Source: Novosphingobium sp. KA1
GTDB taxonomy: Bacteria; Pseudomonadota; Alphaproteobacteria; Sphingomonadales; Sphingomonadaceae
Direction: 5' to 3'
Assembly (NCBI RefSeq): GCF_017309955.1
Contig: NZ_CP021248.1
Location: 1,240,001-1,304,000, forward strand
Length of the DNA stretch: 64,000 nt
Of the stretch, positions 16,463 through 62,434 are shown piece by piece. A program made the position numbers and the translations under genes. The notes beneath the pieces were generated by a model that saw nothing but the letters and a program-made list of their open reading frames with translations, made no database searches and was not told the origin of the DNA. Numbering within the stretch: position 1 is the first letter of the stretch; the number at the start of each line of letters is the position of its first letter.

Positions 16463-16954
16463 GAAGCTATAATTCCGCCAAACGCATCGAGTTCAAGCCG
16501 GAGACCCGGTTTCTTTCGCGGGCAAAGACCAGCCGCGCCACCAGCCGTTCACCGCGGTGCAACGCGGCGACTGCGGGAAGTGCCCCCGCGAAAGCTCGCC
16601 CGCAGAGATACCGGCACCATCGCTAGGCCTTACTGTTTCGATTGCAAGAGCAAACGTTTGGCAAGGCATCAACGATCGAAACCCATCATCCTGACGCGGT
16701 CCGTTGCCGGTGAGCCGCCGTCGGCACGGGGCAATGACACGCAGCCGCTCCCCCTGTCCATACCGATAGCAGGTCTGCCCCGCCATTCCACGCCGTGGAC
16801 ACATTGTCATGTCGGTGCCGCATCCGGCCGCCCGGCGATGTCCAGCGCGATCGCAGCGGCATGGTTAGCCTAGACGCCCGCCCGCCAAACCGATATGTGG
16901 GATGCAATATTATAATTTGGATCAAGGCGATCCAACGCCCGGAGGATGTACGAA
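16463..16954. promoter_or_regulatory. Divergent intergenic region with nested palindromes before PL11
   Basis: This gap lies between the kinase start and the lyase start. It contains GTTTCGAT at 16635-16642 and its exact complement ATCGAAAC at 16675-16682, enclosing the perfect palindrome CAAACGTTTG at 16651-16660. A TATAAT box at 16911-16916 is a good -10 for the lyase, though the -35 is weak, suggesting an activator. GGAGG at 16941-16945 serves ATG 16955. No gene is seen in it. Confidence 0.5.
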
Positions 16955-18898
16955 ATGGCGGCACCGATCCGCACGTTTGCGCCCCTGCTCGGCCTTGTGG
17001 CCATCCAGCCGATCCTCCCGCAAGCCGCAAGCGCACAGCCCGCCCTCGCGCGCGTTGCCGATGAGCGCAGCCCGGCGGAACGGCTGGATCGCGGCGCGGT
17101 CGCCGTTCCGGCCCAGACCTCCGGCATCCTCGTGGACTGGCGGCTGCTTGCCAGCGATCCGAAAGATGCGCGTTTCCGCGTGCTGCGCGACGGCAAGCCG
17201 GTCCATGTCACCCGCCCCGGCGCGGCGACGGCGTTCGTGGATGTGAAGGGCACACCGCAAAGCACTTATGCGGTGGAACGCATCGGCGATCGTGCCGGTC
17301 CGCAGCCTGCGATGTCGTGGACCAGCGGTTACCTCTCGATCCCGCTGGTTCCGCCCGCCGACGGCGTTACGCCGGCGGGGGAAGCCTATTCCTACACCGC
17401 CAACGATGCCGGCGCAGGCGATCTCGACGGCGACGGGCAGTACGAGATCGTGCTCAAGTGGGATCCCACCAACAGCCACGACAATGCCCACACCGGCTAT
17501 ACCGGCGACGTCTTCCTAGACGCGTACAAGCTTGACGGCACAAGGCTCTGGCGCATCGACCTGGGGCGCAACATCCGCGCGGGCGCCCACTATACGCAGT
17601 TCCTCGTCTTCGATTTCGACGGCGACGGCCGCGCCGAAGTCGCAATGAAAACCGCCGATGGCACACTCGACGGCGCCGGCAAAGTGATCGGCGATCCCGC
17701 GGCGGACTGGCGCAGCAGCGGCGGTGAAGTGCCGCAGCAGGACCGCACCGGCGCCAAGGTCCTCGCCGACGGCACCAAGGTCGCCCCGATGCAGGGACGC
17801 ATCGTCAAGGGGCCGGAGTACCTCACCGTCTTCGAGGGCCTGACCGGCAAGGCGCTCGCCACCGCACCGTATGATCCGCCGCGCTATCCCGGCGGCAATC
17901 CCACACCCGAACAACTCGCCGCCGCATGGGGGGACGGCTACGCCAATCGCTCCGACCGCTATCTCGCCGGGGTCGCCTACCTCGACGGGCGCTTGCCCAG
18001 CATGGTCTTCGGACGCGGCTACTACGCCCGCACCGCCGTCGCCGCGTGGGACTGGCGCGGCGGCAAGCTGACCCGCCGGTGGCTGTTCGACAGTTCCAGC
18101 CCCGGCAACGCCGACTATGCCGGTCGCGGCAACCACCAGCTATCGGTCGCCGATGTCGACGGCGATGGCCGTGACGAGGTGATCTACGGCTCGATGGCGC
18201 TCGACGACGACGGCAAGGGCCTGTGGACCCGGCCGCTGTTCCACGGCGACACCATGCATGTGGGTGACCTTGACCCCGCCCGCCCCGGCCTCGAAAAGTT
18301 CGGCGTCTTCGAGGATATCCGCCGCAACGGCGGAATCGGTTCGGCGCTGCTCGATGCGCGCAGCGGCGACGTGCTGTGGACCACCCCCGCCCGCGAAGAC
18401 ACCGGGCGCGGCCTCTCCGCCGATATCGATCCGCGCCATTACGGCGAGGAGTTCTGGGCCTCCAATTCCGACCGCCTGCTGGACACCCGGGGCCAGCCGA
18501 TCGGCCCGCGTCCGCGCCAGACCAACTTCGCGATCTGGTGGGACGGCGACCTGCTGCGCGAATTGCTGGACGGTACGACGATCTCCAAGTGGGACTGGGA
18601 GCGCGGCGTCGCGACGCCGCTGCTGGCCCCGGAAGGACTCGCCGCGAACAACGGCACCAAGGCGACACCCGCGCTCCAGGCCGACCTTATCGGCGACTGG
18701 CGCGAGGAAGTGATCTGGCGCCGCGCCGACAACCGGGAACTGCGCATCTACACCACGCCCTACCCGACCGCGCATCGTTTCGTCACGCTGATGCAGGACC
18801 CGGTCTACCGGGCGGGCGTGGCCTGGCAGAACACCGCCTACAACCAGCCGCCGCACACCGGCTTCTACCTCGGCGCGCCGCCGCCCGGCGGCAAGTGA
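16955..18898 (+). CDS. Rhamnogalacturonan lyase, polysaccharide lyase family 11
   Basis: About 647 residues with a signal peptide ending near AASAQ, so it acts in the periplasm or outside. The N-terminal domain ends at the segment GYLSIPLVPPADGVTPAGEA. An eight-bladed beta-propeller follows, with repeated calcium-binding D-x-D-G-D-G motifs (AGDLDGDGQYEIVLKW, FDFDGDGRAEVAMKTADG, VADVDGDGRDEVIYGS). This layout is characteristic of YesW/YesX-type PL11 enzymes, which cleave the alpha-1,4 bond between rhamnose and galacturonate in rhamnogalacturonan I by beta-elimination. ATG 16955 is chosen because GGAGG directly abuts the earlier ATG 16946. The gene opens the pectin locus and converges on the LacI gene. 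Confidence 0.9.
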   Translation: MAAPIRTFAPLLGLVAIQPILPQAASAQPALARVADERSPAERLDRGAVAVPAQTSGILVDWRLLASDPKDARFRVLRDGKPVHVTRPGAATAFVDVKGTPQSTYAVERIGDRAGPQPAMSWTSGYLSIPLVPPADGVTPAGEAYSYTANDAGAGDLDGDGQYEIVLKWDPTNSHDNAHTGYTGDVFLDAYKLDGTRLWRIDLGRNIRAGAHYTQFLVFDFDGDGRAEVAMKTADGTLDGAGKVIGDPAADWRSSGGEVPQQDRTGAKVLADGTKVAPMQGRIVKGPEYLTVFEGLTGKALATAPYDPPRYPGGNPTPEQLAAAWGDGYANRSDRYLAGVAYLDGRLPSMVFGRGYYARTAVAAWDWRGGKLTRRWLFDSSSPGNADYAGRGNHQLSVADVDGDGRDEVIYGSMALDDDGKGLWTRPLFHGDTMHVGDLDPARPGLEKFGVFEDIRRNGGIGSALLDARSGDVLWTTPAREDTGRGLSADIDPRHYGEEFWASNSDRLLDTRGQPIGPRPRQTNFAIWWDGDLLRELLDGTTISKWDWERGVATPLLAPEGLAANNGTKATPALQADLIGDWREEVIWRRADNRELRIYTTPYPTAHRFVTLMQDPVYRAGVAWQNTAYNQPPHTGFYLGAPPPGGK

Positions 18899-18986: not shown

Positions 18987-20042
18987 TCAGCGGGGAAACA
19001 ACGGGCCGGTGCTTCCCCGCAGCACCAGTTCATGCGCGAGCCTGAACTGGAAGTCCGCCCCGGCCGCCCTTCCCTCGCGGCGGAAACGGGGGTCGGCCAG
19101 GATGTCCACCGCCGCCTTGGCCATCTCCGCCTTGGGTTGCCGCACGGTCGTGATCTGCGGCCAGGCGGTGCGCGACGAGGGGGCATCGTCGAACCCGCAG
19201 ACCGAGAGGCGCTCGGGCACCGGAATCCCGCATTTCATCGCCGCAATCAGGACTCCAAGCGCCATGTCGTCGTTCGAGGCAAAGATCGCGCTCGGCGGCT
19301 CGGGCAGGGTCACCAGGCTTTCGCCAAGCTCCATCCCCGCGCGCGAGGTGAAATCGCCGCGCACGACCAGCCGCTCGTCGACCGCGCCCCCCGCTCCGGC
19401 CCCCGCCCCGACCCCCGCCCCGGCCATCGCCGCCCGGAACCCCTCCTCGCGCCGGACCGAGGCACTGTGCGTCACCGGCCCCTGGATAAACGCGATGGCG
19501 CGGTGCCCCAGGCCCAGCAGGTGCTCCGTCATCTCCCGCGCCGCGAGGCGGTCGTCCATGCGCACCGTTCCCACCCCGGGCGGCGCCGCGCTCGGCGCCA
19601 CCAGCACGGTCGGCACGGCTGCCTCGGCAAAGATCGCCATCAATTCGGGATCGTCGCAGATCGGCGGCGCCACGATCGCGCCGTCCAGCCGCAGCGCCGC
19701 GATGCCGGCCCGCACTTCGTCGGCCCATCCCCGGACCGACAGGTCGACCGGTTCCACCACCAGGTGATAGCTGCGCGAACGGCAGCCGATCAGCGCCCCG
19801 TGCTGGATGTCCGCCGCATACCCCGACACCGGATCGTCGATGAACAGCCCGAGCAGATAGGACCGCGAACTCGACAGGCTGCGGGCAAAGGCGTTGGGGC
19901 GATAGTCCAGCTCGGCAACCACCCGCTGCACCGCCTCGCGCAGTTCCGCGCGCACGTGCGCCTCGCCATTGATGACACGCGACACCGTCTTGGGCGAGAC
20001 ACCGGCGCGGGCCGCGACATCCTTGATCGTGACAACACTCAT
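18987..20042 (-). CDS. LacI-family transcriptional repressor
   Basis: A 351-residue LacI-type regulator starting at ATG 20042 (TIKDVAARAGVSPKTVSRVI, then NGEAHVR), followed by a periplasmic-binding-like effector domain. It overlaps the upstream carrier gene by four bases (ATGA), so the two are translationally coupled. The paired operator at 21380-21417, ahead of both this operon and the divergent receptor operon, is its obvious target; repression relieved by a pectin-derived sugar is the expected logic. The effector domain carries an odd Gly/Ala run (MAGAGVGAGAGAGGA, about residues 224-238), encoded by a near-repetitive stretch that could slip. Confidence 0.92.
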   Translation of the reverse strand: MSVVTIKDVAARAGVSPKTVSRVINGEAHVRAELREAVQRVVAELDYRPNAFARSLSSSRSYLLGLFIDDPVSGYAADIQHGALIGCRSRSYHLVVEPVDLSVRGWADEVRAGIAALRLDGAIVAPPICDDPELMAIFAEAAVPTVLVAPSAAPPGVGTVRMDDRLAAREMTEHLLGLGHRAIAFIQGPVTHSASVRREEGFRAAMAGAGVGAGAGAGGAVDERLVVRGDFTSRAGMELGESLVTLPEPPSAIFASNDDMALGVLIAAMKCGIPVPERLSVCGFDDAPSSRTAWPQITTVRQPKAEMAKAAVDILADPRFRREGRAAGADFQFRLAHELVLRGSTGPLFPR

Positions 20043-21304
20043 GCCGACATCTTTCCTGGCCGCAGACACATCGCCGCAAACAGCGCGACCCCGGCATAGC
20101 AGAGCGCGGGCAGCAGCAAGGCCGGCAGGAGGCCGATGGCATCCGCCGCCGCCCCGGTCAACAACGGCACGATCGCGCCGCCCACCACGGCCATGCACAG
20201 CCACATCGACGCGAGCGGCGCGTCGGCCGCATCGGCGGGCATCGCCAGGGCGTAGATCGTGGGATACATGATCGCGTTGCACAGGCCGATGGCGATGAGC
20301 GCCGCAGCCCCCGCCGCGCCGGGAAGTCCAGCCGCCGCCGCTGCCAGAACGCCCGCCGCCACCGCCGCAACGAGCAGCAGCCGCGCCTCGGCGATCCGTG
20401 TCATCAGCCAGGCTCCGGCAAAACGCCCGGCCATGGCCCCCGCCCAGTAGAAGCTGACCAGCCGCCCGGCGCTCACCGGCGACAGGCCCAGTCGTTCGGG
20501 CAGCATCAGCACGTTAGTCATCAGTGTGCCGACCGTCACTTCCGCGCCGACGTAGACAAAGATGGCAAAGATGCCCCAGCACAGCCGGCGGTCCCGCAGC
20601 ACCGCAAGGATCCGCCGGAGGCGGTTATCGGCCCGCGTCCCGCCCCCAGCGTCCTCCCGCGCCAGCAAGCGGCGATGACGCAGGTAGACTACCGCGAGAA
20701 CCGCCAGAACCGCGCCGGTCGCCACGAACGGCAAGGCCGCGGCCGTGTCCCGCCCCTCTCCCCGGTGAACGTCGGCGAGCAGGAACGGCGCGCTCACCAG
20801 CGGGCCGAGCACCGTTCCCAGCGAATTGAAACCTTGCAGCAGATTGAGCCGGAACGCGGAGCGGCGCGACGGCCCGATCACGGTGACGACGGTATTCGAC
20901 GCGATCTGCAACACCGTCTGCCCCGAGGACAGCAGCAACAGGGCGCCGAGAATGAGCGCGAAGTCCCGCAGGCCCTGCGCCGCCGCCAAGGCCAGGCAGC
21001 CCGCCGCCATCACCGCCAGCCCCGAGGCGATCGCCCGCATGTAGCCGATTCGCACGACGGCGAGCGCGGCGGGCAGCGCAAAGAGCAGGTAGCTGGCATG
21101 AAACGCGAACTGGACCAGCAGCACCTTGCCGTAGTCCAGCGCCAGAACCGACTTGAGCTGCGGCACCAGCAGGCTGACCGAAGCGCTCAGGAAACCGCCG
21201 ATGAAAAACACCCCGACCGAGAGCGCCAGCAGCCGCCGGACCACGGATTCGGCGGTGTCCGAAGCCGTCGCCGGGATCGTGCTGGAAGAGGCGGCACAAG
21301 ACAT
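20039..21304 (-). CDS. Sugar MFS transporter, FucP/GluP type
   Basis: A 421-residue inner-membrane protein with about twelve hydrophobic segments. The start of the transport domain (FFIGGFLSASVSLLVPQLKS), the pair LVQFAFHASYLLFALPAALA, and SRRSAFRLNLLQGFNSLGTV match proton-coupled fucose/glucose/galactose permeases. In sphingomonad and Xanthomonas-type receptor loci such carriers bring the released sugar across the inner membrane. Here the likely cargo is a monosaccharide from rhamnogalacturonan or its arabinan or galactan side chains; the exact sugar is not readable. It shares an operon with the LacI repressor and a control region with the divergent TonB receptor. Confidence 0.85.
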   Translation of the reverse strand: MSCAASSSTIPATASDTAESVVRRLLALSVGVFFIGGFLSASVSLLVPQLKSVLALDYGKVLLVQFAFHASYLLFALPAALAVVRIGYMRAIASGLAVMAAGCLALAAAQGLRDFALILGALLLLSSGQTVLQIASNTVVTVIGPSRRSAFRLNLLQGFNSLGTVLGPLVSAPFLLADVHRGEGRDTAAALPFVATGAVLAVLAVVYLRHRRLLAREDAGGGTRADNRLRRILAVLRDRRLCWGIFAIFVYVGAEVTVGTLMTNVLMLPERLGLSPVSAGRLVSFYWAGAMAGRFAGAWLMTRIAEARLLLVAAVAAGVLAAAAAGLPGAAGAAALIAIGLCNAIMYPTIYALAMPADAADAPLASMWLCMAVVGGAIVPLLTGAAADAIGLLPALLLPALCYAGVALFAAMCLRPGKMSA

Positions 21305-21379: not shown

Positions 21380-21417
21380 TGACAACGATGTCAGAATGAC
21401 GGTTGACATCGTTGTCA
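21380..21417. promoter_or_regulatory. Paired LacI-type operator between sugar carrier and TonB receptor
   Basis: TGACAACGATGTCA at 21380-21393 and TGACATCGTTGTCA at 21404-21417 are exact reverse complements, each also a TGACA-N4-TGTCA palindrome with a CG centre as in LacI-family operators. Their centres are 24 bases apart. The right copy overlaps a TTGACA -35 candidate (21403-21408) for the receptor gene. Binding of the adjacent LacI protein is inferred. Confidence 0.75.
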
Positions 21418-21467: not shown

Positions 21468-23933
21468 ATGACGAGGCACGATCTCGTCGCGGGCACGGCG
21501 CTCGCGGCTTGTCTTTTTTCCGTATCCGCAGCGCACGCCCAAGAGGCAGCTGTACCGCAGGCAGCCGTACCGCCGGTAGCCGCGCCGGTGACCGTTTCCG
21601 ACGGCGACATCATCGTCACCGCCACGCGCCGCGAAACCACCCTGCAGTCCACGCCGATCGCCATCTCGGCCTTCAGCCAGGACACCCTGACCAAGAACGG
21701 CGTGAAGGACGTGACCGACCTTGCGCGTTTCGTGCCCTCGCTCCAGTTCAACCAGCAGGGTGACCAGTCCGCCGTGCTGCTGACGCTGCGCGGCATCGGC
21801 AACGACAGCGCCTATACCGAAGTGGCCGACCCGGAAGTCGCCATCTATGTCGACGGCATCTACTCCCCGCGTTCGCAGGGCGCCTCGGTGCTGATGTACG
21901 ACATGGAACGCGTCGAAGTGCTGCGAGGGCCGCAGGGCACGCTGTTCGGCCGCAACGCCACCGTCGGCGCGCTCAGCCTGATCTCGGCCAAGCCCAGACT
22001 CGGCGTATTCGAGGGCAATGTCGAAGTCACCGCGGGCAATTACGACCGGTTCGGCGTGCGCGGCGCGATCAACATCCCGGTCACCGACACGCTGGCCTTC
22101 CGCGTTGCCTTCGTCAGCGACCGGCATGACGGTTATGCCGACTATCAGCCCGCGCCCGATGTCGCCGGCATCAACAAGTCCGCCTTTGTCACCTCGGGCA
22201 AGAAGTACTACGCCGCCGACCAGCGCTCGGGCCGCGTCTCGATGCTCTGGCAGCCGGGCGAGCGCTTTTCCTGGAACCTCTCCGGCGAAGCCTTCTGGGA
22301 CGACGGCGCTCCGGTGATCGGCCTGCTCCAGACCCCGCGCGCGGGCACCAGACGCTGGTCGACGCTCAGCGATACCGCGCCCGATACCGACCGTTACTCG
22401 GTGGCGGTCCGCAGTACCATGAACTATGACGTCACCGACGGCATCCAGCTCAGCTACATCGCCGGCTGGTCCCGCATCGGCGGCAGCACCCGCACCGATG
22501 CCGACGCCGGCGCGCTCCCGCCAACCGGGGAAGTGGACGCCAGCGGCAACGACCTGCCGCTCGGCGCCTTCAACGAGAACGCCACGGTCTGGTCGCGCTA
22601 CGACTTCCAGAGCCACGAGCTCCAGCTCAAGTCCTCGGGCGACAATGCCATCGACTGGATCCTGGGCGCCTACTACAGCCACGAAAAGAACAAGATCCGC
22701 TTCGATATCGACCAGCGCAACGGCTACCGCGACGGCACCTTCAGCTGGGCGGGCAGCTTCATCCAGGCCGATCGCCAGATCGACAGCCGCGCCGCCTTCG
22801 GCCAGGCCGTGTGGCATGCCGCCGACTGGCTGCGCGTGACCGGCGGCCTGCGCTACACTTCGGACAAGAAGAAGGACGTCGGCGGCCGCAACGTCATGTT
22901 CGACCATTGCCCCGACACCCTGCCCGCCGACGCCTGCCAGGGCGGCATCTTCGGCGCCTATCCGGGTGCGACGGCCGCCGAACTGGTCGACCTGCTGCCC
23001 GGCTACGCGATCTCCAGCAACGATGTGAAAGGCAAGTGGGACAAGCTGACCTACCTTGCCCGCGTCGATGCCGACATCGCCGCCGACACGCTGGGTTACG
23101 CCAGCATCTCGACCGGCTTCAAGTCGGGCAACATCCAGGACAATGCGGGCCTCACCGATCCGGAAACCCTGACCAACTACGAAGTCGGCCTCAAGACCCG
23201 CATGTTCGACCGCCGCCTGACGCTGAACCTGGCCGCCTACTATTCCGACTTCAAGGGATACCAGGTGAACCAGGCGGTCACTTTCCGCGACGATGAAGGC
23301 AACGTCATCCGCAGCCAGATGATCACCCAGAACGCCAAGGGCGCGAAGGCTTACGGCCTGGAAGCGGAAATGAGCGCGGCGCTGACCGGCAACGACCGCC
23401 TGAACCTTTCCGCCACCCTGCAGAAGACCCGGCTGGAGGATCTCGAAAGCGTCGACGGCCGCCTCTACGACGGCAGCAAGCAGTCCTCGATCGTGCAGCT
23501 GAGGGGCAACGAACTGGCCCATGCCCCGCGCTTCTCGGCAACGGCAAGCTACGAGCATGACTTCGTGCTGGCGAGCGGCGCCCGGATCACCCCGCGCGTC
23601 ACCACCCACTACGAGACACGCAGCTGGCTGAGCTACTTCAACGGCGATGCCAATCCCTTCGTGAATGCCAACGATCCGGACGACAACATGCCCGATCGCG
23701 GCACCAACGGCACCTCGTGGGACAAGCAGAAGGCCTACTTCCGCTCCGACGCCTCGATCCGCTTCACCACGGCGGACGACAAGTACACGGTCGAGGCCTT
23801 TGTCCAGAACATCGAGAACGGGCACATCCGCACCGGTGCCGGCGCCTTTGGCGCGCCGCGCTACGATCCGGTGTTCCTCTCGAACCTGCAGCCGCCGCGG
23901 ACCTGGGGCCTGCGCGCCCGCGCCAGCTTCTGA
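21468..23933 (+). CDS. TonB-dependent receptor
   Basis: An 821-residue outer-membrane receptor starting at ATG 21468, with GGGAGGA just upstream; the longer open frame upstream is not coding. A signal peptide ends at about AAHAQ. The plug has a TonB-box-like DGDIIVTATRRET and the motif MERVEVLRGPQGTLFGRNAT, followed by a beta-barrel closing with LRARASF. It imports a ligand at the expense of TonB energy. It leads an operon with the halogenase-like protein and the GH3 enzyme, and the LacI-type operator pair lies just upstream, so an oligosaccharide from rhamnogalacturonan or its side chains is the likely ligand. Confidence 0.93.
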   Translation: MTRHDLVAGTALAACLFSVSAAHAQEAAVPQAAVPPVAAPVTVSDGDIIVTATRRETTLQSTPIAISAFSQDTLTKNGVKDVTDLARFVPSLQFNQQGDQSAVLLTLRGIGNDSAYTEVADPEVAIYVDGIYSPRSQGASVLMYDMERVEVLRGPQGTLFGRNATVGALSLISAKPRLGVFEGNVEVTAGNYDRFGVRGAINIPVTDTLAFRVAFVSDRHDGYADYQPAPDVAGINKSAFVTSGKKYYAADQRSGRVSMLWQPGERFSWNLSGEAFWDDGAPVIGLLQTPRAGTRRWSTLSDTAPDTDRYSVAVRSTMNYDVTDGIQLSYIAGWSRIGGSTRTDADAGALPPTGEVDASGNDLPLGAFNENATVWSRYDFQSHELQLKSSGDNAIDWILGAYYSHEKNKIRFDIDQRNGYRDGTFSWAGSFIQADRQIDSRAAFGQAVWHAADWLRVTGGLRYTSDKKKDVGGRNVMFDHCPDTLPADACQGGIFGAYPGATAAELVDLLPGYAISSNDVKGKWDKLTYLARVDADIAADTLGYASISTGFKSGNIQDNAGLTDPETLTNYEVGLKTRMFDRRLTLNLAAYYSDFKGYQVNQAVTFRDDEGNVIRSQMITQNAKGAKAYGLEAEMSAALTGNDRLNLSATLQKTRLEDLESVDGRLYDGSKQSSIVQLRGNELAHAPRFSATASYEHDFVLASGARITPRVTTHYETRSWLSYFNGDANPFVNANDPDDNMPDRGTNGTSWDKQKAYFRSDASIRFTTADDKYTVEAFVQNIENGHIRTGAGAFGAPRYDPVFLSNLQPPRTWGLRARASF

Positions 23934-23956: not shown

Positions 23957-25513
23957 ATGACGAGCGACGATCCCTCTTCCGGTCGCATCGTCATCCTGGG
24001 CGGCGGCACGGCCGGATGGCTGGCCGCCGCCTACCTTGCCCGCACGCTGGGGATGCGCGACGTCGTGCTGGTGGAATCCAGCCGGATCGGCATCATCGGC
24101 GTGGGCGAGGGCACGTTTCCCACCATCCGCACCACGCTGGCGGGCCTTGGCATCGGCGAGGCGGAATTCCTCACCCGCGCCGATGCCACGTTCAAGCAGG
24201 GCGTGCTGTTCGAAGGCTGGGCCACGGGTGCCGACAGCTATTTCCACCCCTTCAACATGCCGGTGGGCGGCGAGGACGAGGCGCTGCTGCCGCACTGGAT
24301 CGCCGCCGCCGAGGACCCCGCCCGCCCGTCATGGGCCGATGCGGTGACCGTGCAGGAACGGCTGATCCGCGCGGGCCGTGCGCCCAAGCGGCCCGGCGAT
24401 CCCGATTTCTCGGGGCCGATGAACTACGCCTACCACTTCGACGCGGCCCGCTTTGCCGACTATCTGCGCGACATTTCCATCGCCGCCGGCGTCACCCGGA
24501 TCGAGGGCACGGTGGCAAGCGCCGAACGCGCGCCCGATGGCGACATCGCGGCGCTGATGCTGACGGACGGCCGCCGCGTCGCAGGCGGGTTCTTCCTCGA
24601 TTGCTCCGGCTTTTCCGCCCTGCTCATCGGCAGGACGCTCGGCGCCGGGTTCACCTCCTGCGCGGACTACCTGTTCAACGACCGGGCACTGGCCCTGCAA
24701 CTGCCCTACGATTGCCCGGACGCCCCCGTGCGCCCCTATACGCTGGCGACCGCGCATGACGCGGGCTGGACCTGGGACATCGGCCTCAGCGAGCGGCGCG
24801 GCATCGGCTATGTCTATTCCAGCCGCCACTGCTCGGACGAGGAAGCGGAGGCGACCTTGCGCCGCTACCTCGGCCCCCAGGGCGCCGCCCTCGCCCCGCG
24901 CCCGCTTCGTTTCGAGACCGGCTACCGCGAAACCCAGTGGATCGGCAACTGCGTGGCGCTGGGCCTGTCCGCCGGGTTCTTCGAGCCGCTGGAATCGACC
25001 GGCATCATGCTGATCGAGGCGGCGCTGAAGATGATCGGCGACTTCCTCGTTCCCGCCGACCGGACCGCCCGGGAGGCCGCCGCCCGCAGCTTCAACCGGC
25101 TCATGGCGGCGCGGTTCGAGCGCATCGTCACCTTCCTCAAGCTGCACTACTGCATCACCCGCCGCACCGACACCGCCTACTGGCGCGACAATGCCGATCC
25201 CGCCTCGATCCCAGAGAACCTGCGGGACATGCTCTTGCAGTGGCGCCGCCGTCCACCTTCCCGGTTCGATTTTGTCGTCGACCTCGAGACCTTCCTGCCG
25301 CCAAGCTACCACTACATCCTCTACGGCATGGGTTTCGAGACCCGGCTTGCGGCGGGCGAGCGCCATTATCCCGGTGACCGAGAAGCCCGCGAGGCCTTTG
25401 CCCGCGTCCGCGCCGCGCAGACCGGCGCGCTTGGCGCCCTGCCCGACCACCGCAGCCTGCTGAACCACTATCACGCCCGCACGGGCACCGCTCCAGCCAA
25501 GGTTTCCCGATGA
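23957..25513 (+). CDS. Tryptophan-halogenase-family flavoprotein (PF04820-like)
   Basis: A 518-residue FAD protein. The dinucleotide-binding motif GGGTAGW lies at 15-21. Lys80 (ATFKQGV) aligns with the catalytic lysine of PrnA (K79), and Glu346 in FFEPLESTGI matches the conserved glutamate (E346). The signature WxWxIP is present as WTWDIG (271-276), with Gly for Pro. The key residues suggest catalysis remains possible. Genes of this family recur beside TonB receptors in glycan loci of alpha- and gammaproteobacteria, but their role there is unsettled; halogenation of a plant phenolic or indole, or a non-halogenating oxidation, are options. Its stop overlaps the GH3 start (ATGA). No flavin reductase is nearby. 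Confidence 0.88.
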   Translation: MTSDDPSSGRIVILGGGTAGWLAAAYLARTLGMRDVVLVESSRIGIIGVGEGTFPTIRTTLAGLGIGEAEFLTRADATFKQGVLFEGWATGADSYFHPFNMPVGGEDEALLPHWIAAAEDPARPSWADAVTVQERLIRAGRAPKRPGDPDFSGPMNYAYHFDAARFADYLRDISIAAGVTRIEGTVASAERAPDGDIAALMLTDGRRVAGGFFLDCSGFSALLIGRTLGAGFTSCADYLFNDRALALQLPYDCPDAPVRPYTLATAHDAGWTWDIGLSERRGIGYVYSSRHCSDEEAEATLRRYLGPQGAALAPRPLRFETGYRETQWIGNCVALGLSAGFFEPLESTGIMLIEAALKMIGDFLVPADRTAREAAARSFNRLMAARFERIVTFLKLHYCITRRTDTAYWRDNADPASIPENLRDMLLQWRRRPPSRFDFVVDLETFLPPSYHYILYGMGFETRLAAGERHYPGDREAREAFARVRAAQTGALGALPDHRSLLNHYHARTGTAPAKVSR

Positions 25514-27780
25514 CTTCGAAGATTGCCGCCCTGCTGACCGCCCTCACCCTCGGCACCGGCCTGACCGCCCCGGTGCAGGCCCAGACACCCGTCCAGACGA
25601 CCGCCAGCCAGTCGGCGGAATCCCGCGCCGAAGCACTGGTCAAGGCGATGACGCTGGACGAAAAGCTGCAACTGATCCACGGCTACTTCCCGCCGCTGGC
25701 GAAACCGGTGCCGCCGATCGCCATGATCCCGTCGGCCGGGCACATCCCCGGCATCCCCCGCCTCGGCATCCCCACCTTGCGCGAGAGCGACGCCAGCCTC
25801 GGCGTCGCCAACCAGATCGAGCAGCGCAAGGGCGACGTCGCCACCGCGCTGCCCGCCAGCATCGCCACCGCCGCCACCTTCAACCCCCGCCTCGCCTACC
25901 AGGGCGGGGCGATGATCGGTGCGGAAGCGCGCGCCAAGACGTTCAACGTGCTGCTGGCAGGCGGCGTCAACCTCACCCGCGACCCCTGGAACGGGCGCAA
26001 TTTCGAATATCTCGGCGAAGACCCGCTGCTCGCGGGGATCATGGTGGGCGCCCATATCAAGGGCGTACAGAGCAACCACATCGTCTCCACCATCAAGCAT
26101 TTCGCGCTCAATTCGCAGGAGACCGGCCGCACCGTGCTCGACGCCCGCATCGATCCGGCGGCGCTGCGCGAAAGCGACCTTCTGGCCTTCGAGATCGGCA
26201 TCGAGCAGGGCCAGCCCGGCTCGGTCATGTGCGCCTACAACAAGGTGAACGGCGACTATGCCTGCGAGAACGACTGGCTGCTCAACCACGTGCTGAAGCG
26301 GGCCTGGGGCTACAAGGGCTGGGTCATGTCCGACTGGGGCGCGGTCCATTCGACCGAGAAGGCCGCGATCAACGGGCTGGACCAGGATTCCGGGCAGGAA
26401 CTGGACGACCGCATGTTCTTCGACGACCGCTTTGCCGAGGCGGTAAAGGCGGGGCGCATTCCGATGAGCCGCCTCGACGACATGGTCCGGCGCATCCTGT
26501 TCGGCGTGATCGACAGCGGACTGATGGACGATCCGGTGCCCGAAACCCCGCAGCCGATCGACTATGCCGCCCATGCCGAGGTCGCCCAGCGCGCCGCCGA
26601 GGAGGGCATCGTGCTGCTCAGGAACGAAGGCGACCTGCTGCCGCTGGCGCGCAGCGCAAAACGGATCGTGCTGATCGGCGCCCATGCCGATGTCGGCGTG
26701 CTGTCCGGCGGCGGCTCGTCGCAAGTCCGCTCGGTCGGCGGCGCGCCGGTGGAGATCCCGCTCACCAAAGGCGCCGCCGCCTCCTTCGCGCGGATCACCT
26801 GGCACGCCTCCTCGCCGCTCAAGGCCATCAAGGCGCTCGCCCCCGGTGCCACGGTTGTCTACCTCGACGGCAGCGATCCCAAGGCCGCGGCACAGGCAGC
26901 CCGCGGCGCGGACATCGCCATGGTCTTCGCCTGGGCCTGGCGCACCGAAGCGCAGGACCCCGAAAGCATGGCCCTGCCGGACAACCAGGATGCGCTCATC
27001 GAAGCGGTCGCCGCCGCCAACCGCAAGACGCTGGTGGTCCTGGAAACCGGCGGCCCGGTGCTGATGCCCTGGGCAAGCCGCGTCCCAGCGATCCTGCAGG
27101 CCTGGTATCCCGGCCAGCGCGGCGGCGAGGCGATCGCCAATATCCTGTTCGGCAAGGTCGATCCCTCCGGCCGCCTGCCGATCACCTTCCCCGCCAGCGC
27201 CGCGCAGGCGCCCCGCCCCGAGCCGCTCGGGCTTGCCGAACTGCGCGCCGCCGACGCACGCCGCGACGCCGGTGACAAGACCGTCTACGGCATGAGCGGC
27301 GGCGTCGCGCCCTTCTCGGCCGACTACCGCGAGGGCGCCGATGTCGGCTATCGCTGGTATGCGGCGCGGAACCAGCAACCGCTGTTCCCGTTCGGCTTCG
27401 GCCTCTCCTATACCCGTTTCGGCTATGCCAATCTCAAGGTCACCGACGGCACCCGGCTGACGGTCGAATTCGATGTCACCAACAGCGGACAGCGCGAAGG
27501 CGCCGACGTGCCGCAGCTCTATGTCGAGGCGGCCAGTGCCGCCGGCACCCGCGCCTACCGCCTTTCCGGTTTCGAGAAAGTCCGCCTGGCCCCGGGCGAG
27601 ACCCGCCACGTGACGCTCACGGTCGATCCGCGCGTCATCGCCCGGTTCCAGCGAACCGGCAACGGCACCGAAAGCTGGAGCGTGGATGCCGGGGCCTATC
27701 CGCTGCGGATCGGCCATTTCGCCGGCGATGCCGCGCTGAGCGGGACCGCCCGCCTCGATGCCCTTAGCGTAAAACCGTAA
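25510..27780 (+). CDS. Glycoside hydrolase family 3 (beta-glycosidase)
   Basis: A 756-residue GH3 enzyme with a signal peptide (cleavage near APVQAQ), so periplasmic or extracellular. The TIM-barrel includes the TIKHFALNSQE block at about 194-204 and the nucleophile Asp275 in GWVMSDWGAV. The (alpha/beta) sandwich carries the acid/base region, and a C-terminal fibronectin-III-like domain ends the protein (LAPGETRHVTLTVDPR). GH3 members remove terminal beta-linked glucose, xylose or related sugars; in this locus it probably trims side-chain residues. It is translationally coupled to the halogenase gene. The exact linkage cannot be told. Confidence 0.92.
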   Translation: MTSKIAALLTALTLGTGLTAPVQAQTPVQTTASQSAESRAEALVKAMTLDEKLQLIHGYFPPLAKPVPPIAMIPSAGHIPGIPRLGIPTLRESDASLGVANQIEQRKGDVATALPASIATAATFNPRLAYQGGAMIGAEARAKTFNVLLAGGVNLTRDPWNGRNFEYLGEDPLLAGIMVGAHIKGVQSNHIVSTIKHFALNSQETGRTVLDARIDPAALRESDLLAFEIGIEQGQPGSVMCAYNKVNGDYACENDWLLNHVLKRAWGYKGWVMSDWGAVHSTEKAAINGLDQDSGQELDDRMFFDDRFAEAVKAGRIPMSRLDDMVRRILFGVIDSGLMDDPVPETPQPIDYAAHAEVAQRAAEEGIVLLRNEGDLLPLARSAKRIVLIGAHADVGVLSGGGSSQVRSVGGAPVEIPLTKGAAASFARITWHASSPLKAIKALAPGATVVYLDGSDPKAAAQAARGADIAMVFAWAWRTEAQDPESMALPDNQDALIEAVAAANRKTLVVLETGGPVLMPWASRVPAILQAWYPGQRGGEAIANILFGKVDPSGRLPITFPASAAQAPRPEPLGLAELRAADARRDAGDKTVYGMSGGVAPFSADYREGADVGYRWYAARNQQPLFPFGFGLSYTRFGYANLKVTDGTRLTVEFDVTNSGQREGADVPQLYVEAASAAGTRAYRLSGFEKVRLAPGETRHVTLTVDPRVIARFQRTGNGTESWSVDAGAYPLRIGHFAGDAALSGTARLDALSVKP

Positions 27781-27794
27781 CACCGACCTGCGTG

Positions 27795-27825
27795 GGGCTT
27801 GACGTATCGCAGGTTGGTCAAGCCC
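27795..27825. terminator. Hairpin shared by convergent GH3 and aldehyde dehydrogenase genes
   Basis: GGGCTTGAC at 27795-27803 pairs perfectly with GTCAAGCCC at 27817-27825 (loop 13 bases). It overlaps the stop codon of the minus-strand gene and lies 15 bases after the GH3 stop, so it can end both transcripts. There is no T-run. Confidence 0.45.
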
Positions 27826-29314
27826 GCGCGGCGGGTGCCTCTGCCCGGATGCCGCCGAGCGCCACGTACTTCATCTCGAGGTACTCCTCGATGCCGACCG
27901 CCGCCCCCTCGCGCCCGAGGCCGGATGCCTTGACGCCGCCGAACGGCGCCACCTCAGTGGAGATCAGCCCCTCGTTGACGCCCACCATGCCGAACTCCAG
28001 CCCTTCCACCACGCGGAAGATGCGCCCCATGTCGCGCGCGCAGACATAGGCGGCAAGGCCGAAGGGCGTATCGTTGGCCAGCGCCACCGCCTCCTCCTCC
28101 GCGGCGAAACGGAACAGCGGGGCGACCGGACCGAAGGTTTCCTCGGCAAATATCGTCGCGTCGCGCGGCACCTCTTTCAGCACCGTCGGCGCGAAGAACG
28201 TGCCGCCAAGCGCATGACGATGCCCGCCGCAAGCAAGCTGCGCGCCGCGCGCCAGAGCGTCGCCGACATGCTCCTCCACTTTGGCGACCGCCGCCGCGTC
28301 GATCAGCGGGCCGATCGCGCTGCCGGGCACGGTTCCGGGGGCAACGACGAGCCTGGCGGTCTCGGCAGCCAGCCGCTCGGCAAAGGCGTCGTAGATGCCG
28401 TCCTGCACGAGAAACCGGTTGGCGCCGATGCAGGACTGGCCGCTGTTGCGGAACTTCGCCATCATCGCCGCCGCCACCGCCGTCTCGAGATCGGCATCGT
28501 CGAACACGATGAACGGCGCATTGCCGCCCAGTTCCATGCTGGCCCGCTTGATGCCCGGCGCGCACTGCGCCAGCAGCAGCGCACCGATCTCGGTCGACCC
28601 GGTGAACGAGAGCTTGCGCACCGCCGGATTGGCCGTCAGTTCGCCGCCGATCGCCCCGGCCGCCCCGGTGACGACATTGCAGACCCCGGCCGGCAGCCCG
28701 GCGCGCTCGGCCAGCACGCCGAGCGCCAGCGCGGTCAGCGGCGTCTGGCTCGCGGGCTTGATCACCCCGGTGCAGCCCGCCGCCCAGCCGGGAGCGGCCT
28801 TGCGGGTGATCATGGCCGCCGGGAAATTCCACGGCGTGATCGCGGCAAAGACCCCGACCGGCACCTTCTGCACCAGGATCCGGCGCCCTTCGAGGTTCTG
28901 CGGAATGATCTCGCCATCCACGCGCTTGGCTTCCTCGGCGAACCATTCCGCAAAACTGGCGGCATAGAGCACCTCGCCGCGCGCCTCGGCCAGCGGCTTG
29001 CCCTGTTCCGAGGTGATCAGCAGGGCCAGGTCGTCCGCGTGGCGCAGCATCAGTTCGAAGAAGCGGCGCAGGATCACGCTGCGCTGCTTGGCGAGCATCG
29101 CCCGCCAGGCAGGAAGCGCCTGCCCTGCCGCTGCCACCGCGCGCCGGGTTTCCGCCGCCCCGGCTTTCGGGACACGCGCGATGAGTTCGCCATTGGCGGG
29201 ATTGCGGACATCGATGGTCTCGCCGCTGTCGGCGGGCAGCCAGGCGCCGCCGATCAGCATCGCCTGGCGCAGCAGATCGGGATCGGCCAGCGGCAAGGTT
29301 ACGGGTTGTTCCAT
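27818..29314 (-). CDS. NAD(P)-dependent aldehyde dehydrogenase (semialdehyde type)
   Basis: A 498-residue ALDH starting at ATG 29314, with AAGGA upstream. The catalytic glutamate block is ASMELGGNAPFIV and the nucleophilic cysteine lies in FRNSGQSCIGANRF; the C-terminal part has FGGVKASGLGREG. The sequence resembles succinate-semialdehyde and 2-oxoglutarate-semialdehyde dehydrogenases, so in this locus it may oxidise 2-oxoglutarate semialdehyde made by KdgD (44583-45512), or a product of the DHDPS-family lyase just upstream. It is the last gene of the minus-strand operon cyclodeaminase-lyase-ALDH, separated from the lyase by 11 bases. The protein is cytosolic. Confidence 0.93.
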   Translation of the reverse strand: MEQPVTLPLADPDLLRQAMLIGGAWLPADSGETIDVRNPANGELIARVPKAGAAETRRAVAAAGQALPAWRAMLAKQRSVILRRFFELMLRHADDLALLITSEQGKPLAEARGEVLYAASFAEWFAEEAKRVDGEIIPQNLEGRRILVQKVPVGVFAAITPWNFPAAMITRKAAPGWAAGCTGVIKPASQTPLTALALGVLAERAGLPAGVCNVVTGAAGAIGGELTANPAVRKLSFTGSTEIGALLLAQCAPGIKRASMELGGNAPFIVFDDADLETAVAAAMMAKFRNSGQSCIGANRFLVQDGIYDAFAERLAAETARLVVAPGTVPGSAIGPLIDAAAVAKVEEHVGDALARGAQLACGGHRHALGGTFFAPTVLKEVPRDATIFAEETFGPVAPLFRFAAEEEAVALANDTPFGLAAYVCARDMGRIFRVVEGLEFGMVGVNEGLISTEVAPFGGVKASGLGREGAAVGIEEYLEMKYVALGGIRAEAPAARA

Positions 29315-29325
29315 GGCGCGTCCTT

Positions 29326-30336: not shown

Positions 30337-30374
30337 GCTGCGAACTCTCCGAAGGTTTTAGAGAACTGGGGCGA

Positions 30375-31379: not shown

Positions 31380-31427
31380 GATGCCCTCTCCCGGCCCTGC
31401 GTAACTTTTGCGGCGATTAAGTTCACT

Positions 31428-31454
31428 ATTGACGCATGTCAATCTGATTATTGA
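31428..31454. promoter_or_regulatory. Overlapping palindromes between cyclodeaminase and GntR genes
   Basis: ATTGAC-GCAT-GTCAAT (31428-31443) is a perfect dyad, and TCAAT-N6-ATTGA (31439-31454) overlaps it, sharing the TCAAT. They lie between divergent starts at 31379 and 31510. Similar symmetry recurs downstream of the GntR gene at 32224-32239. They are candidate GntR binding sites by position and symmetry. Confidence 0.55.
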
Positions 31455-31509
31455 TTTGCTATCCTCAGCTGTCCGGCATTGTGGTACCTCGGCCGCAAAG
31501 GAGCTTTCC

Positions 31510-32239: not shown

Positions 32240-32412
32240 TTGCATGGCACTCCTCCTTCCGAAGGCAATCGCGGCAAGACCTGCCGGAACACGTGCGCAA
32301 CGGATCCCGCCGCGCCGCATGGGGCACTTTTTTCTTTCGCTAGCGGTTGACGATAAAGACCACATGATGAAATACCATCCCACATAAGACATCGCTCAAA
32401 ATGGGAGAGAGC

Positions 32413-35190
32413 ATGAGCAAGCTGGTCTGGAGCCGCCGCGAGATGTTGGCGCAAAGTCTGGCGACCTCGGCCGTCGTCTCGTCGATGGCGCTCACCGCCG
32501 GGCAGGCCAAGGCCGCTCCCGCAGGCGCACAGGAACCGCTGGGTTCCGGCATCGCGCCGGGCGACGACGTGGTATGGCTCGATGGCGGCACGCCCTCCGC
32601 CCACGAAGGCCAGTCATGGGGCCAGCCCTGGCCGCGCGGCACCCGGTTCGACAGGCGCGGTTACGTTCTCGAAGGCGCAGGCGGCGCCCGCGAGGCGCTG
32701 CAGACATGGCCGATGGCCTGGTGGCCCGACGGCTCGATCAAGTGGACCGGGCACGCGGCCGCCGCCAACGGCGCCCGCGCCGGTTCCCTGCGCGTCGCGC
32801 CCGGCAGCGCCCGGCCCGCGCAGACGCTATCCCTGCGCGAGGCAGGCGATGCCATCACCGTCACCGTGGGGCAGACCGTCTGGACGGTCGGCCGTTCGGG
32901 CGAGGCGCTGATCCGCTCCGCGAACGTCGGTTCGGCGCAAGTACTGCAATCGGTGCGCCTGCTCGCCAGCGCGCAGGACCGCGCCGACGACGAGGACGGC
33001 GCCCCCGGGTTGACCCGCTGGACCAGCAGCATCGACAGCGCGACGGTCGAACAGAGCGGCCCGATCCGCGCCGTCATCAAGCTCGACGGCCGCCATCGCG
33101 GTGAGGCGAGCGACAGTGCGGGCGACTGGATGCCCTTCTGCGTCCGCCTCTACTTCCACGCCGGATCGGACAGCGTGCGGCTGGTCCACTCGATGATCTT
33201 CGACGGCGACCCGACCACACGTTTCATTCGCGGACTGGGCCTGGAGGGCGGCGTGCCGATGCGCGGCGCGCTGCATGACCGCCACGTCCGTTTCGCGGGC
33301 GAGAATGGCGGCCTCTGGGGCGAGGCGGTGCGCCCGCTGACCGGCCTGCGCCGCGATCCCGGCAAGGCTTTCCGCGACGCACAAGTGGCGGGCGAGGCCG
33401 TCCCTCCACTCGACCAGATGGGCGCGGCGGTGCGCCAGAACCTCGAATATATCCCGGCTTGGGGCGATTTCCGCCTGCGCCAACCCAATTCGGACGGTTT
33501 TACCATCGTCAAGCGCACCCGGCCGGGCTGCGGCTGGGTAGACGTCGACACCGCCGGGCGCGCACCGGGGCTGGGTTATGTCGGCAGCCCTTCGGGCGGG
33601 GTCGCCTTCGGCATGCACGACTTCTGGCAGCGCTGCCCGGTCGGCCTCGACATCGCCGATGCTGCCAGGGACACCGCGCGCTTCACGATCTGGTACCACG
33701 CCCCCGATGCCCCGGCGATGGACCTGCGCTTCTATCACGACGTCATGGGCATGGAGAGTTACGAGGCGCAGAACCGCGGCCTCGACGTGACGTATGAGGA
33801 TTATGAACCCGGCTGGGGCGATGCCTCCGGGATCGCGCGGACCACCGAATTCCGCATCTGGGCGCTGCCCGCCACGCCGCCGCGCGAACGACTGGCGCAC
33901 ATGGGCAAGGGCCTTGCCACCCCGCCGCGCCTCGTCCCCAATGTCGCGCGGGTCCACGCGGCCGGGCTGTTCGGGCCGTGGAGCCCGATCGCCGCGGGCG
34001 GGGCGCTGCGCGGCAAGATCGAGGCGCGCGCGAAACAGGAACTCGATTTCTACATCGGGCAAGTCGAGCAGCGGCGCTGGTACGGCTTCTGGAACTACGG
34101 CGACGTCATGCACAGCTATGACAACGACCGGCACGTGTGGCGCTACGACATCGGCGGTTTCGCCTGGGACAACAGCGAACTGTCGACCGACATGTGGCTG
34201 TGGTACGGCTTCCTGCGCACGGGCCGCGCCGACGTGTTCCGGCTTGCCGAGGCGATGACCCGCCACACGGGCGAGGTCGACGTCTACCATGCCGGCCGCT
34301 TCAAGGGCCTGGGCACCCGCCACGGCGTGCAGCACTGGGCGGACAGTTCGAAGCAGCCGCGCATCTCCAACGCCGCCTATCGCCGTTTCTACTATTACCT
34401 CACCACCGACGAGCGCTGCGGCGACCTGATGCGCGCCCTGGTGGACAGCGATCATGCGCTCAAGACCGTCGACATCGGCCGCAAGGTGCTGCACCGGGCC
34501 GAACCGCTCGCCGGAACCGGCGCGGTGGTGGCCGACCAGCCGCTGCCCGAGGGCCAGATCTTCATGCAGTTCGGCACCGTCTGGGGCTCGCTGCTGGGCG
34601 CCTGGCTGACCGAGTGGGAGCGCACGCGCGACACCCGCTGGCGCGACCGCATCGTGGCCGGAATGCGCTCCATCGCCGCGTTGCCCAAGGGCTGGCTGGC
34701 GGGCGGCGGCGCGTTCGATCTCGCCTCCGGCCGCTTCGTGGGGGGCGGCAAGGAGGTCAACATGAGCCACCTCAACGGCGTGTTCGGCGTGTTCGAGATC
34801 ACCGCCGAACTGCTGGAACTCGTGGACGAACCGGCCTTCCGCAAGACCTGGCTGGAATACTGCGAGCTCTACAACGCCCCCGAGGCGGAGTTCCGCGCCC
34901 GCACCGGCGCATCGGGCAAGGGCCGCGCGCTGGCGCAGGCGCATTCGCGCTACACCGCCTATGCCGGGGTGCAACTCGGCAAGCCGGAACTGGTCCGGCG
35001 TGCCTGGGGCGAATTCTTCGGCGCGGGCGACCGCGAAGGCCGCGACCAGTCGCGCGGGGCACACAAGGTCACCGGGGCCGCGGTGCTCAAGCCGGTGGAC
35101 GAGATCGCCGAAGTTTCCACCAACGACGCCGCGCAGTGGGGCATCGCCGCCGCCGTGAACCTGACACTGATCGGGGATGCGCTGGAGTGA
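32413..35190 (+). CDS. Exo-rhamnogalacturonan lyase family protein (PL26-like)
   Basis: A 925-residue exported protein. The N-terminus SRREMLAQSLATSAVVSSMA is a twin-arginine (Tat) type signal, so it is folded before export to the periplasm. ATG 32413 has GGGAGAG just upstream; ATG 32401 in frame is less well placed. The protein starts with a beta-rich (RIFT-barrel-like) domain carrying LQTWPMAWWPDGSIKWTGHA and continues into an alpha/alpha-barrel-like part with RRWYGFWNYGDVMHSYDNDR and GTRHGVQHWADSS, resembling the three-domain exo-acting enzyme PcRGLX. Such enzymes release unsaturated galacturonyl-rhamnose from rhamnogalacturonan I ends. It overlaps the next gene (GTGA). Confidence 0.8.
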   Translation: MSKLVWSRREMLAQSLATSAVVSSMALTAGQAKAAPAGAQEPLGSGIAPGDDVVWLDGGTPSAHEGQSWGQPWPRGTRFDRRGYVLEGAGGAREALQTWPMAWWPDGSIKWTGHAAAANGARAGSLRVAPGSARPAQTLSLREAGDAITVTVGQTVWTVGRSGEALIRSANVGSAQVLQSVRLLASAQDRADDEDGAPGLTRWTSSIDSATVEQSGPIRAVIKLDGRHRGEASDSAGDWMPFCVRLYFHAGSDSVRLVHSMIFDGDPTTRFIRGLGLEGGVPMRGALHDRHVRFAGENGGLWGEAVRPLTGLRRDPGKAFRDAQVAGEAVPPLDQMGAAVRQNLEYIPAWGDFRLRQPNSDGFTIVKRTRPGCGWVDVDTAGRAPGLGYVGSPSGGVAFGMHDFWQRCPVGLDIADAARDTARFTIWYHAPDAPAMDLRFYHDVMGMESYEAQNRGLDVTYEDYEPGWGDASGIARTTEFRIWALPATPPRERLAHMGKGLATPPRLVPNVARVHAAGLFGPWSPIAAGGALRGKIEARAKQELDFYIGQVEQRRWYGFWNYGDVMHSYDNDRHVWRYDIGGFAWDNSELSTDMWLWYGFLRTGRADVFRLAEAMTRHTGEVDVYHAGRFKGLGTRHGVQHWADSSKQPRISNAAYRRFYYYLTTDERCGDLMRALVDSDHALKTVDIGRKVLHRAEPLAGTGAVVADQPLPEGQIFMQFGTVWGSLLGAWLTEWERTRDTRWRDRIVAGMRSIAALPKGWLAGGGAFDLASGRFVGGGKEVNMSHLNGVFGVFEITAELLELVDEPAFRKTWLEYCELYNAPEAEFRARTGASGKGRALAQAHSRYTAYAGVQLGKPELVRRAWGEFFGAGDREGRDQSRGAHKVTGAAVLKPVDEIAEVSTNDAAQWGIAAAVNLTLIGDALE

Positions 35191-62209: not shown

Positions 62210-62434
62210 TCCACAACTCCTCCAGAACGGGAGGGCATGGGCGATGCAAACCGTCATTTTCCTAACCGGGGTCACCGCTGTGCGATGCCACCACTCTCAA
62301 GTGCGCAACTGCCCACGGGCCACGTTTTTTAACGGGGTATCATGCCACCAATAAGCGAACGGCCGCGACCCTCCTGGCGAGCAGCATAGCACGACCCGTT
62401 TCTACCGCGCACAGGCGGGCTAAACCCGCGACCG
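62210..62434 (-). ncRNA. Candidate IS110 bridge RNA region
   Basis: About 225 non-coding bases between the transposase start and the element edge on the side of the 5' end of the gene, the position of the bridge RNA in IS110-group elements such as IS621. It contains a hairpin GCGGG-CTAAA-CCCGC (62415-62429) at its outer end and an extended -10-like TGCTATGCT on the minus strand. Guide loops and core bases were not assigned. The RNA is predicted from position and family, not seen as such. Confidence 0.5.

Follow-up and report, generated by a model that had tools for sequence, protein, structure and literature searches.

RebH- and PrnA-type tryptophan halogenases work in a biosynthetic and not an uptake context, and QhpG acts on peptides. 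Halogenase-type genes also occur in carbohydrate TonB loci; to our knowledge, no job has been assigned to the halogenase-like genes beside TonB receptors. MibH acts on a lanthipeptide (PMC8269204). BrvH (probably of Brevundimonas sp. BAL3) brominates indole at a low activity, so that its natural substrate may be another compound, and the WxWxIP motif was suggested to guard against monooxygenase activity (PMC5945002). In an open-licence literature search, no paper was recognised as describing a unit of LacI and MFS genes divergent from TonB receptor, FDH and GH3 genes, and no statement was found that halogenase-type genes occur in carbohydrate TonB loci. A term search found no 'halogenase' in PMC1790865, on carbohydrate TonB loci, or in PMC7142613. 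A 'tryptophan halogenase' gene with one insertion is tabulated among the colony-morphology genes of a freshwater Sphingomonas (PMC11340318), a possible phenotype for the family.

The window, i.e., the whole stretch of 64,000 nucleotides of Novosphingobium sp. KA1 that was analyzed, belongs to a three-contig genome of 5.78 Mb and is located on a contig of 1.8 Mb. The genome contains five PF04820 matches, four of them above the cut-off. By identity of the flavoprotein in the window, the nearest named loci belong to Sphingomonas sp. IC081 chromosome C2 (97%) and Novosphingobium clariflavum (95%). The features of the locus are as follows.

16946..18898, + strand: flanking PL11 rhamnogalacturonan lyase (RGL11), outside the conserved unit (Pfam)
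18987..20042, - strand: LacI-family regulator (PF00356, PF13377)
20039..21304, - strand: MFS sugar transporter (GluP/FucP-like), divergent from the receptor (PF07690; TIGR01272 at 187.2 bits, below the cut-off of 202.55)
21380..21393, + strand: predicted LacI operator 1, TGACAACGATGTCA, kept in orthologues that have FDH and in those that lack it
21404..21417, + strand: predicted LacI operator 2, TGACATCGTTGTCA, conserved in orthologues
21468..23933, + strand: partner TonB-dependent receptor, 821 aa, Plug and beta-barrel (Pfam, NCBIfam)
23957..25513, + strand: halogenase-family flavoprotein (FDH-like, WxWDIG subfamily), 518 aa (ORF, PF04820, AlphaFold model)
23996..24019, + strand: FAD-binding motif codons, residues 14-21, LGGGTAGW (sequence)
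24194..24196, + strand: Lys80 codon, motif FKQG (invariant in 55 aligned sequences; K in 201/202)
24767..24787, + strand: WTWDIGL, residues 271-277, the subfamily version of WxWxIP (alignment)
24983..25006, + strand: EPLESTGI, residues 343-350, with Glu346 and the halide-loop T348-G349 (alignment)
25510..27780, + strand: GH3 glycosidase, probably of beta-glucosidase type (Pfam GH3 N, C and Fn3-like)
32401..35190, + strand: flanking PcRGLX-type (PL26-like) gene, outside the conserved unit (domain match)

The Pfam families RGL11 and PcRGLX correspond to PL11 and PL26-type, respectively. Elsewhere in the window, a DNA polymerase III alpha-type gene lies behind two smaller ORFs (9063-12506), which together we presume may form an imuA-imuB-dnaE2 mutagenesis cassette, and an IS110-family transposase was found at 60842-62275.

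The flavoprotein and its subfamily

The ORF at 23957-25513 starts with ATG, stops with TGA and encodes 518 aa. Its product matched PF04820 (Trp_halogenase) over the full length (residues 10-463) at 447.7 bits against a cut-off of 21, and by this curated score it is a member of the family. The AlphaFold model (pLDDT 88.6; best fold matches 2pyx and 9ltb) predicts a full-length Trp-halogenase fold. The codon-position GC of the gene (0.68/0.53/0.88) resembles that of its operon neighbours. A decayed or odd gene was ruled out by the intact frame, the typical codon signature and the invariant catalytic residues, and antisense ORFs, e.g., 24329-25474 on the - strand, were taken as GC-rich shadow frames. 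The N-terminus reads MTSDDPSSGRIVILGGGTAGW, with no signal peptide apparent by eye.

The Lys80 and Glu346 equivalents and the FAD motif reported in the earlier note were all present and, in an alignment of 55 sequences, invariant: Lys80, Glu346, W271, W273 and I275 did not vary, nor did G15-G17, T18, G20 and W21 of the FAD motif. Several class-defining features of halogenases were thus found, namely the GxGxxG motif (as GGGTAGW), both the catalytic Lys and Glu and, as a site predicted by alignment, the T-G halide-binding loop (EPLESTGI). The HPF segment (H97-P98-F99) is also kept, with H97 and F99 invariant in 39 sequences. The WxWxIP motif, a further feature of the class, is replaced by W271-x-W273-D-I-G276, and the protein is therefore called halogenase-like and is not filed as a proven halogenase. 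Residues 448-461 read PPSYHYILYGMGFE, unlike both Trp4 group motifs given in PMC8269204 as judged by eye, and a Trp4 motif contacting free tryptophan was not recognisable in this region. The top NCBIfam match was the QhpG model NF049967, at 43.6 against a cut-off of 240, which places the protein outside the QhpG-type equivalog. The retention of Lys80, Glu346, the halide loop and HPF, together with the lack of a recognisable free-tryptophan motif, suggests an active enzyme acting on an aromatic other than tryptophan.

RebH, PrnA, Thal, PyrH and AbeH share the fold and the Lys/Glu pair with the flavoprotein and differ from it in possessing both WxWxIP and the Trp4 motif for free tryptophan. The ESTG halide loop is common to the flavoprotein and the Trp 5-halogenase AbeH, and HPF or a related segment, part of the aromatic sandwich of Trp halogenases, is common to it and the RebH-type enzymes (PMC8269204). 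BrvH and Xcc4156 (Xanthomonas campestris) are WxWxIP halogenases of the same family and fold; their catalytic residues are kept, and BrvH likewise has no Trp4 motif. Unlike the flavoprotein, both have the Pro (WxWxIP in BrvH, PMC5945002; WMWRIP in Xcc4156), and they carry Ser or Asn where its halide loop has Gly (PMC5945002, PMC7336383). The non-Pro form was also found in 2pyx, 9ltb and 9lu2, the solved 'tryptophan halogenases' of Shewanella frigidimarina, Altererythrobacter sp. S1-5 and Pseudoalteromonas sp. L11-2, whose halide loops are EASA (2pyx and 9ltb) and EATG (9lu2), as opposed to ESTG. A literature search by the codes 9ltb and 9lu2 returned nothing relevant.

The motif was compared across 202 distinct family sequences (of 214) and three PDB chains, four further matches without the FAD pattern having been dropped beforehand. 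The catalytic Lys was conserved in 201 of the 202 sequences. The residue following W-x-W-x-I was G, A or S in 39/39 sequences scoring at least 560 bits and in 58/58 at 500-560 bits, so that Pro was absent from all 97 distinct sequences of at least 500 bits. IG and IA were mixed with IP in the 350-500 bit class (26 sequences), and IP prevailed below 350 bits (79 sequences). WTWDIG had thus been read correctly in the earlier note as standing in place of WxWxIP, but it is not unusual; since the non-Pro form is the norm at 500 bits and above, it marks a subfamily. The halide loop was ESTG in 37 and ESSG in 2 of the 39 top-scoring sequences. The occurrence of EASA in 13/26 sequences of the 350-500 bit class indicates that the loop can change, yet it is unchanged in the branch of the window.

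The five-gene unit and its predicted operators

The flavoprotein gene starts 23 bp after the end of the TonB receptor gene, and its stop overlaps the GH3 start by 4 bp (ATGA, CCCGATGAC), in agreement with the earlier note, which placed the halogenase homologue behind a TonB receptor and in translational coupling with a GH3 glycosidase. By eye, the ATGA junction recurs in at least 10 of 28 related junctions, mostly of Novosphingobium and Sphingobium, and many others have a short spacer. The N-terminus of the GH3 protein looks like a secretion signal by eye. Its 15 best PDB matches were named beta-glucosidase or the like, one of them simply GH3; it passed no NCBIfam cut-off, the top match being an exo-alpha-L-arabinopyranosidase model (411.9 against 1300).

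Conservation was assessed in 81 loci (80 genome_contigs loci plus the window), each with an FDH above 500 bits, in 59 of which the flanks extend for at least 8 kb in either direction. LacI, MFS, receptor, FDH and GH3 genes of the window types occurred together in 19/81 loci, all well flanked. The glycosidase near the FDH was GH1 only in 39 loci (36 beta- and 3 gammaproteobacterial), GH3 only in 25 (all alphaproteobacterial) and both in 2; neither was present in 15, some of them on short contigs. Two of two GH1 partners tested passed the beta-glucosidase cut-off TIGR03356, and GH9 was additionally present in at least two betaproteobacterial loci (both of those examined). The partner hydrolases of both families look like beta-glucosidases.

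The description of the surroundings as a rhamnogalacturonan locus held insofar as the PL11 and PL26-type genes are real and flank the unit; the operon itself is not specific to rhamnogalacturonan. PL11 or PL26 accompanied only 3 of the 19 five-gene loci and was absent from 16, and matches within 8 kb of the FDH were restricted to 3/81 loci (3/59 well flanked), i.e., the window and its two closest relatives (L143 and L144), where PL11 and PL26 flank the unit too. The five genes are also found on the Sphingobium yanoikuyae plasmid pKN1, without rhamnogalacturonan genes. Between the unit and the PL26 gene (27818-32166), ALDH, DHDPS-like and ornithine cyclodeaminase/mu-crystallin-like genes on the - strand and a divergent GntR regulator look like a separate catabolic operon, and a BD-FAE-type esterase is encoded close by (35896-36885).

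The two predicted operators are 14-bp palindromes between the MFS and receptor genes. The pair is kept in receptor orthologues with and without FDH, with one mismatch per site in L154/L157 and with the row of L266 misplaced at its anchor in that comparison. The 5.78 Mb genome has no exact copies other than those at 21380 and 21404. There were two single-mismatch copies, both on contig C1: one at C1:1573714, the other (G000:C1:1735900-1735913) in a paralogous receptor/FDH locus, about 0.2 kb upstream of its receptor ORF, which hints at a related LacI regulator there. Within the window, 10 matches with up to three mismatches were observed against 4.0 expected (largest of 100 shuffles, 9), comprising the two exact copies and eight with three mismatches. 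In the window, the 4 kb upstream of the PL11 gene and of the PL26 gene contained none of these matches, and no exact or single-mismatch copy was found near either. With a conserved link to rhamnogalacturonan lyases present in 3/59 loci and no operator shared with them, the operon was rejected as a rhamnogalacturonan utilisation locus. Among loci with divergent receptor and FDH genes, 21/43 have, by raw count, TGAAAWCGWTTTCA in or near the intergenic region; in those 21, 32 of 41 copies sit in or near the receptor-FDH intergenic region. The FDH therefore appears to be co-regulated with the receptor through the predicted operators even where gene order differs. The operon looks like a small, separately regulated sugar-uptake unit, apparently for beta-glucosides and not for the pectin polymer degraded by its neighbours. 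One locus (L061, G006:C2:251000-270000) has a close GH3 relative (66% identity) and one copy of the predicted operator next to SapC, Cupin_8, another type of receptor and an FDH of another branch, so that the glycosidase type of the window is paired there with another receptor/FDH set.

Receptors with and without the flavoprotein

Receptors were searched for in 61 relatives and 397 family genomes, the best two candidates per genome being scored in the latter. At a threshold of at least 61% identity, 24 distinct receptor orthologues were obtained; by coordinates, the FDH adjoins 14 of them and is missing beside 10, of which 8 keep a window-type GH3 nearby. In the 397 genomes, 13 FDHs reach at least 61% identity, and every one of them adjoins the receptor; with only 14/24 receptors accompanied by an FDH, the dependence is one-way. 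Two genomes with the receptor (G028 and G034) had no match to the window FDH at E<=0.001, and in six other FDH-less genomes, from the 397, absence means none at E<=1e-150. No FDH remnant was detected in four FDH-less loci (L246-L249), where the best tblastn hit was no better than E 0.25. On the receptor tree, FDH presence and absence require 5 changes, and well-supported branches force 3 of these. The receptors of G028, G034 and G363 are 84-85% identical to that of the window and lack the flavoprotein; two of the three still have GH3. GH3 relatives with an identity of 51% or more numbered 20 in the 61 genomes, and an FDH was found in the neighbourhood examined for 3 of them (window, G031 and G006), some contigs being short. 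Since the receptor-GH3 pair persists without the FDH, the pair is the core and the flavoprotein an add-on; by gene content, it is an optional part of the unit.

Among 87 distinct FDHs of the window branch (at least 500 bits), the TonB-dependent receptor within 3.5 kb was of the window type in 79 and of another type in 2, and none was found in 6, e.g., L037 (a 7-kb contig) and L150 (cut by the contig end). For the 109 lower-scoring FDHs, the corresponding numbers were 0, 85 and 24. SapC lay within 6 kb of 1/87 FDHs of at least 500 bits, 18/27 at 350-500 bits and 10/82 below 350 bits; for Cupin_8, the counts were 0/87, 13/27 and 12/82. The window branch was sampled mostly from genome_contigs and the others from Sphingomonadales relatives and plasmid records, so the association with receptor type should be read as a pattern and not as a rate. 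The SapC/Cupin_8 loci resemble the window in that an FDH-family gene adjoins a TonB receptor in a sugar-use locus; they differ in their lower-scoring FDHs (IG/IA or IP) and receptor type. The L066 receptor, from such a locus, matches TIGR01782, whereas that of the window has no match to this model at E<=0.001. PDB matches of the window receptor (siderophore, haem, colicin and pesticin receptors) cover the plug region only and hence say nothing about its ligand. Two or more tandem FDH-family genes lie near one receptor in other branches (L045, L055, L059, L067, L076 and others), which suggests paralogues with different substrates.

Residues were compared at 25 conserved W/Y columns in 40 receptors, 30 with FDH and 10 without, and no aromatic position followed FDH absence in all 10 FDH-less rows. 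Four of these (L246, L247, L265 and L249) showed no change, and L248 showed one, Y463F. In the FDH-less clade L266-L270, W427F and Y723F occurred in 5/5 and W261, W297 and W397 were changed to F/Y in some; conserved Trp was replaced by Phe or Tyr at W261, W297, W397 and W427 in 12/35 cells, as against 4 W changes in the 30 FDH-linked rows, 7 of which had any W/Y change. Overall, 19/250 conserved W/Y cells were changed in FDH-less and 11/755 in FDH-linked rows; for other conserved columns, the values were 83/2740 and 93/8251. The Trp pattern of clade L266-L270 is as compatible with a new ligand as with release from Trp modification and, being confined to one clade, is not independent evidence for receptor modification.

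Possible roles of the flavoprotein

Our leading, though tentative, reading is that the flavoprotein is an optional add-on to a self-contained uptake unit for beta-glucosides, probably under LacI control, and acts on a small electron-rich aromatic. The composition and conservation of the unit, the operator pair, the GH3/GH1 split, the absence of FDH from some loci and the retained Lys80, Glu346 and ESTG are read directly from the sequences; from them we infer the enzyme mechanism and substrate. Since no signal sequence is visible, the protein is expected in the cytosol and so should not act on an extracellular polysaccharide, which favours a small imported or released aromatic. It would stay in the cytosol and receive FADH2 from a general flavin reductase; the C4a-hydroperoxyflavin would form and, with halide, give HOX, which would be passed to Lys80; Lys80 would then halogenate the small electron-rich aromatic, bound close to the conserved H97-P98-F99. 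Candidates for this aromatic are the aglycone of a beta-glucoside that comes in through the partner receptor and a compound entering alongside. The reaction would be secondary, serving detoxification or the tagging of an aglycone for another pathway, and unneeded for obtaining the sugar. The occurrence of the five-gene set without PL11/PL26 in 16/19 loci and the TIGR03356 results count for the beta-glucoside unit. Against it count the arabinopyranosidase match of the GH3, which passed no cut-off, the 15/81 loci with neither GH1 nor GH3, and GH9, which points to cello-oligosaccharides over aryl glucosides. By Pfam, the five genes also include no aromatic-catabolism enzyme and no flavin reductase, and related FDH branches accompany receptors in loci for a range of glycans, where an aglycone is less obvious.

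The missing WxWxIP Pro counts against halogenation as such, and a non-halogenating role, raised in the earlier note, is conceivable. In the same uptake setting, the flavoprotein may instead be a flavin monooxygenase that hydroxylates the aromatic, a reading we hold to be rather unlikely but worth considering, as the motif suggested to block monooxygenase activity (PMC5945002) lacks its Pro in 97/97 sequences of at least 500 bits. Lys80, Glu346 and ESTG, however, are kept as expected for halogenation and would not be needed for hydroxylation, and the halide loop, although mutable elsewhere in the family, is retained in this branch.

Modification of the receptor is a live but weaker rival to the small-aromatic reading. 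By analogy with QhpG and MibH on peptides, the flavoprotein could oxidise or halogenate Trp of its partner receptor in the cytosol before export, which we regard as unlikely. The pairing of the FDH branch with one receptor family (79/87 against 0/109), the Trp replacements in the five-row clade and the QhpG model as top NCBIfam match, albeit far below its cut-off, speak for it. Nevertheless, receptors persist in G028 and G034 without any FDH match at E<=0.001, Trp is unchanged in the other five receptors that lack an FDH, and a changed sugar ligand could equally explain the single clade. More doubtful is a maturase that halogenates or hydroxylates receptor Trp before export and so tunes the aromatic sugar-binding surface; if true, it would explain both the branch/family pairing and the change of Trp to Phe/Tyr in one FDH-less clade.

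The earlier proposal of an aromatic on pectin side chains as target within a rhamnogalacturonan system is favoured by the PL11 and PL26 genes that flank the unit in the window, L143 and L144, and by the nearby BD-FAE-type esterase, but 56 of 59 well-flanked related loci are without PL11/PL26, no exact or single-mismatch operator lies near these genes and the partner enzymes resemble beta-glucosidases, so we abandon it as highly improbable. A redox or ligand sensor without catalytic turnover would suit an optional gene that travels with a regulator, but is hardly credible given that Lys80 and Glu346 are invariant in the 55 aligned sequences.

Loss of the Pro in WxWxIP characterises a subfamily that is large and coherent; it reflects neither an error in the sequence nor decay of the enzyme. 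The FDH-less relatives G028, G034 and G363 are ready-made comparisons for finding the job of the flavoprotein. Being small, with its own predicted operator and natural FDH-less relatives, the unit is a good place to settle the role of halogenase-like genes beside TonB receptors.
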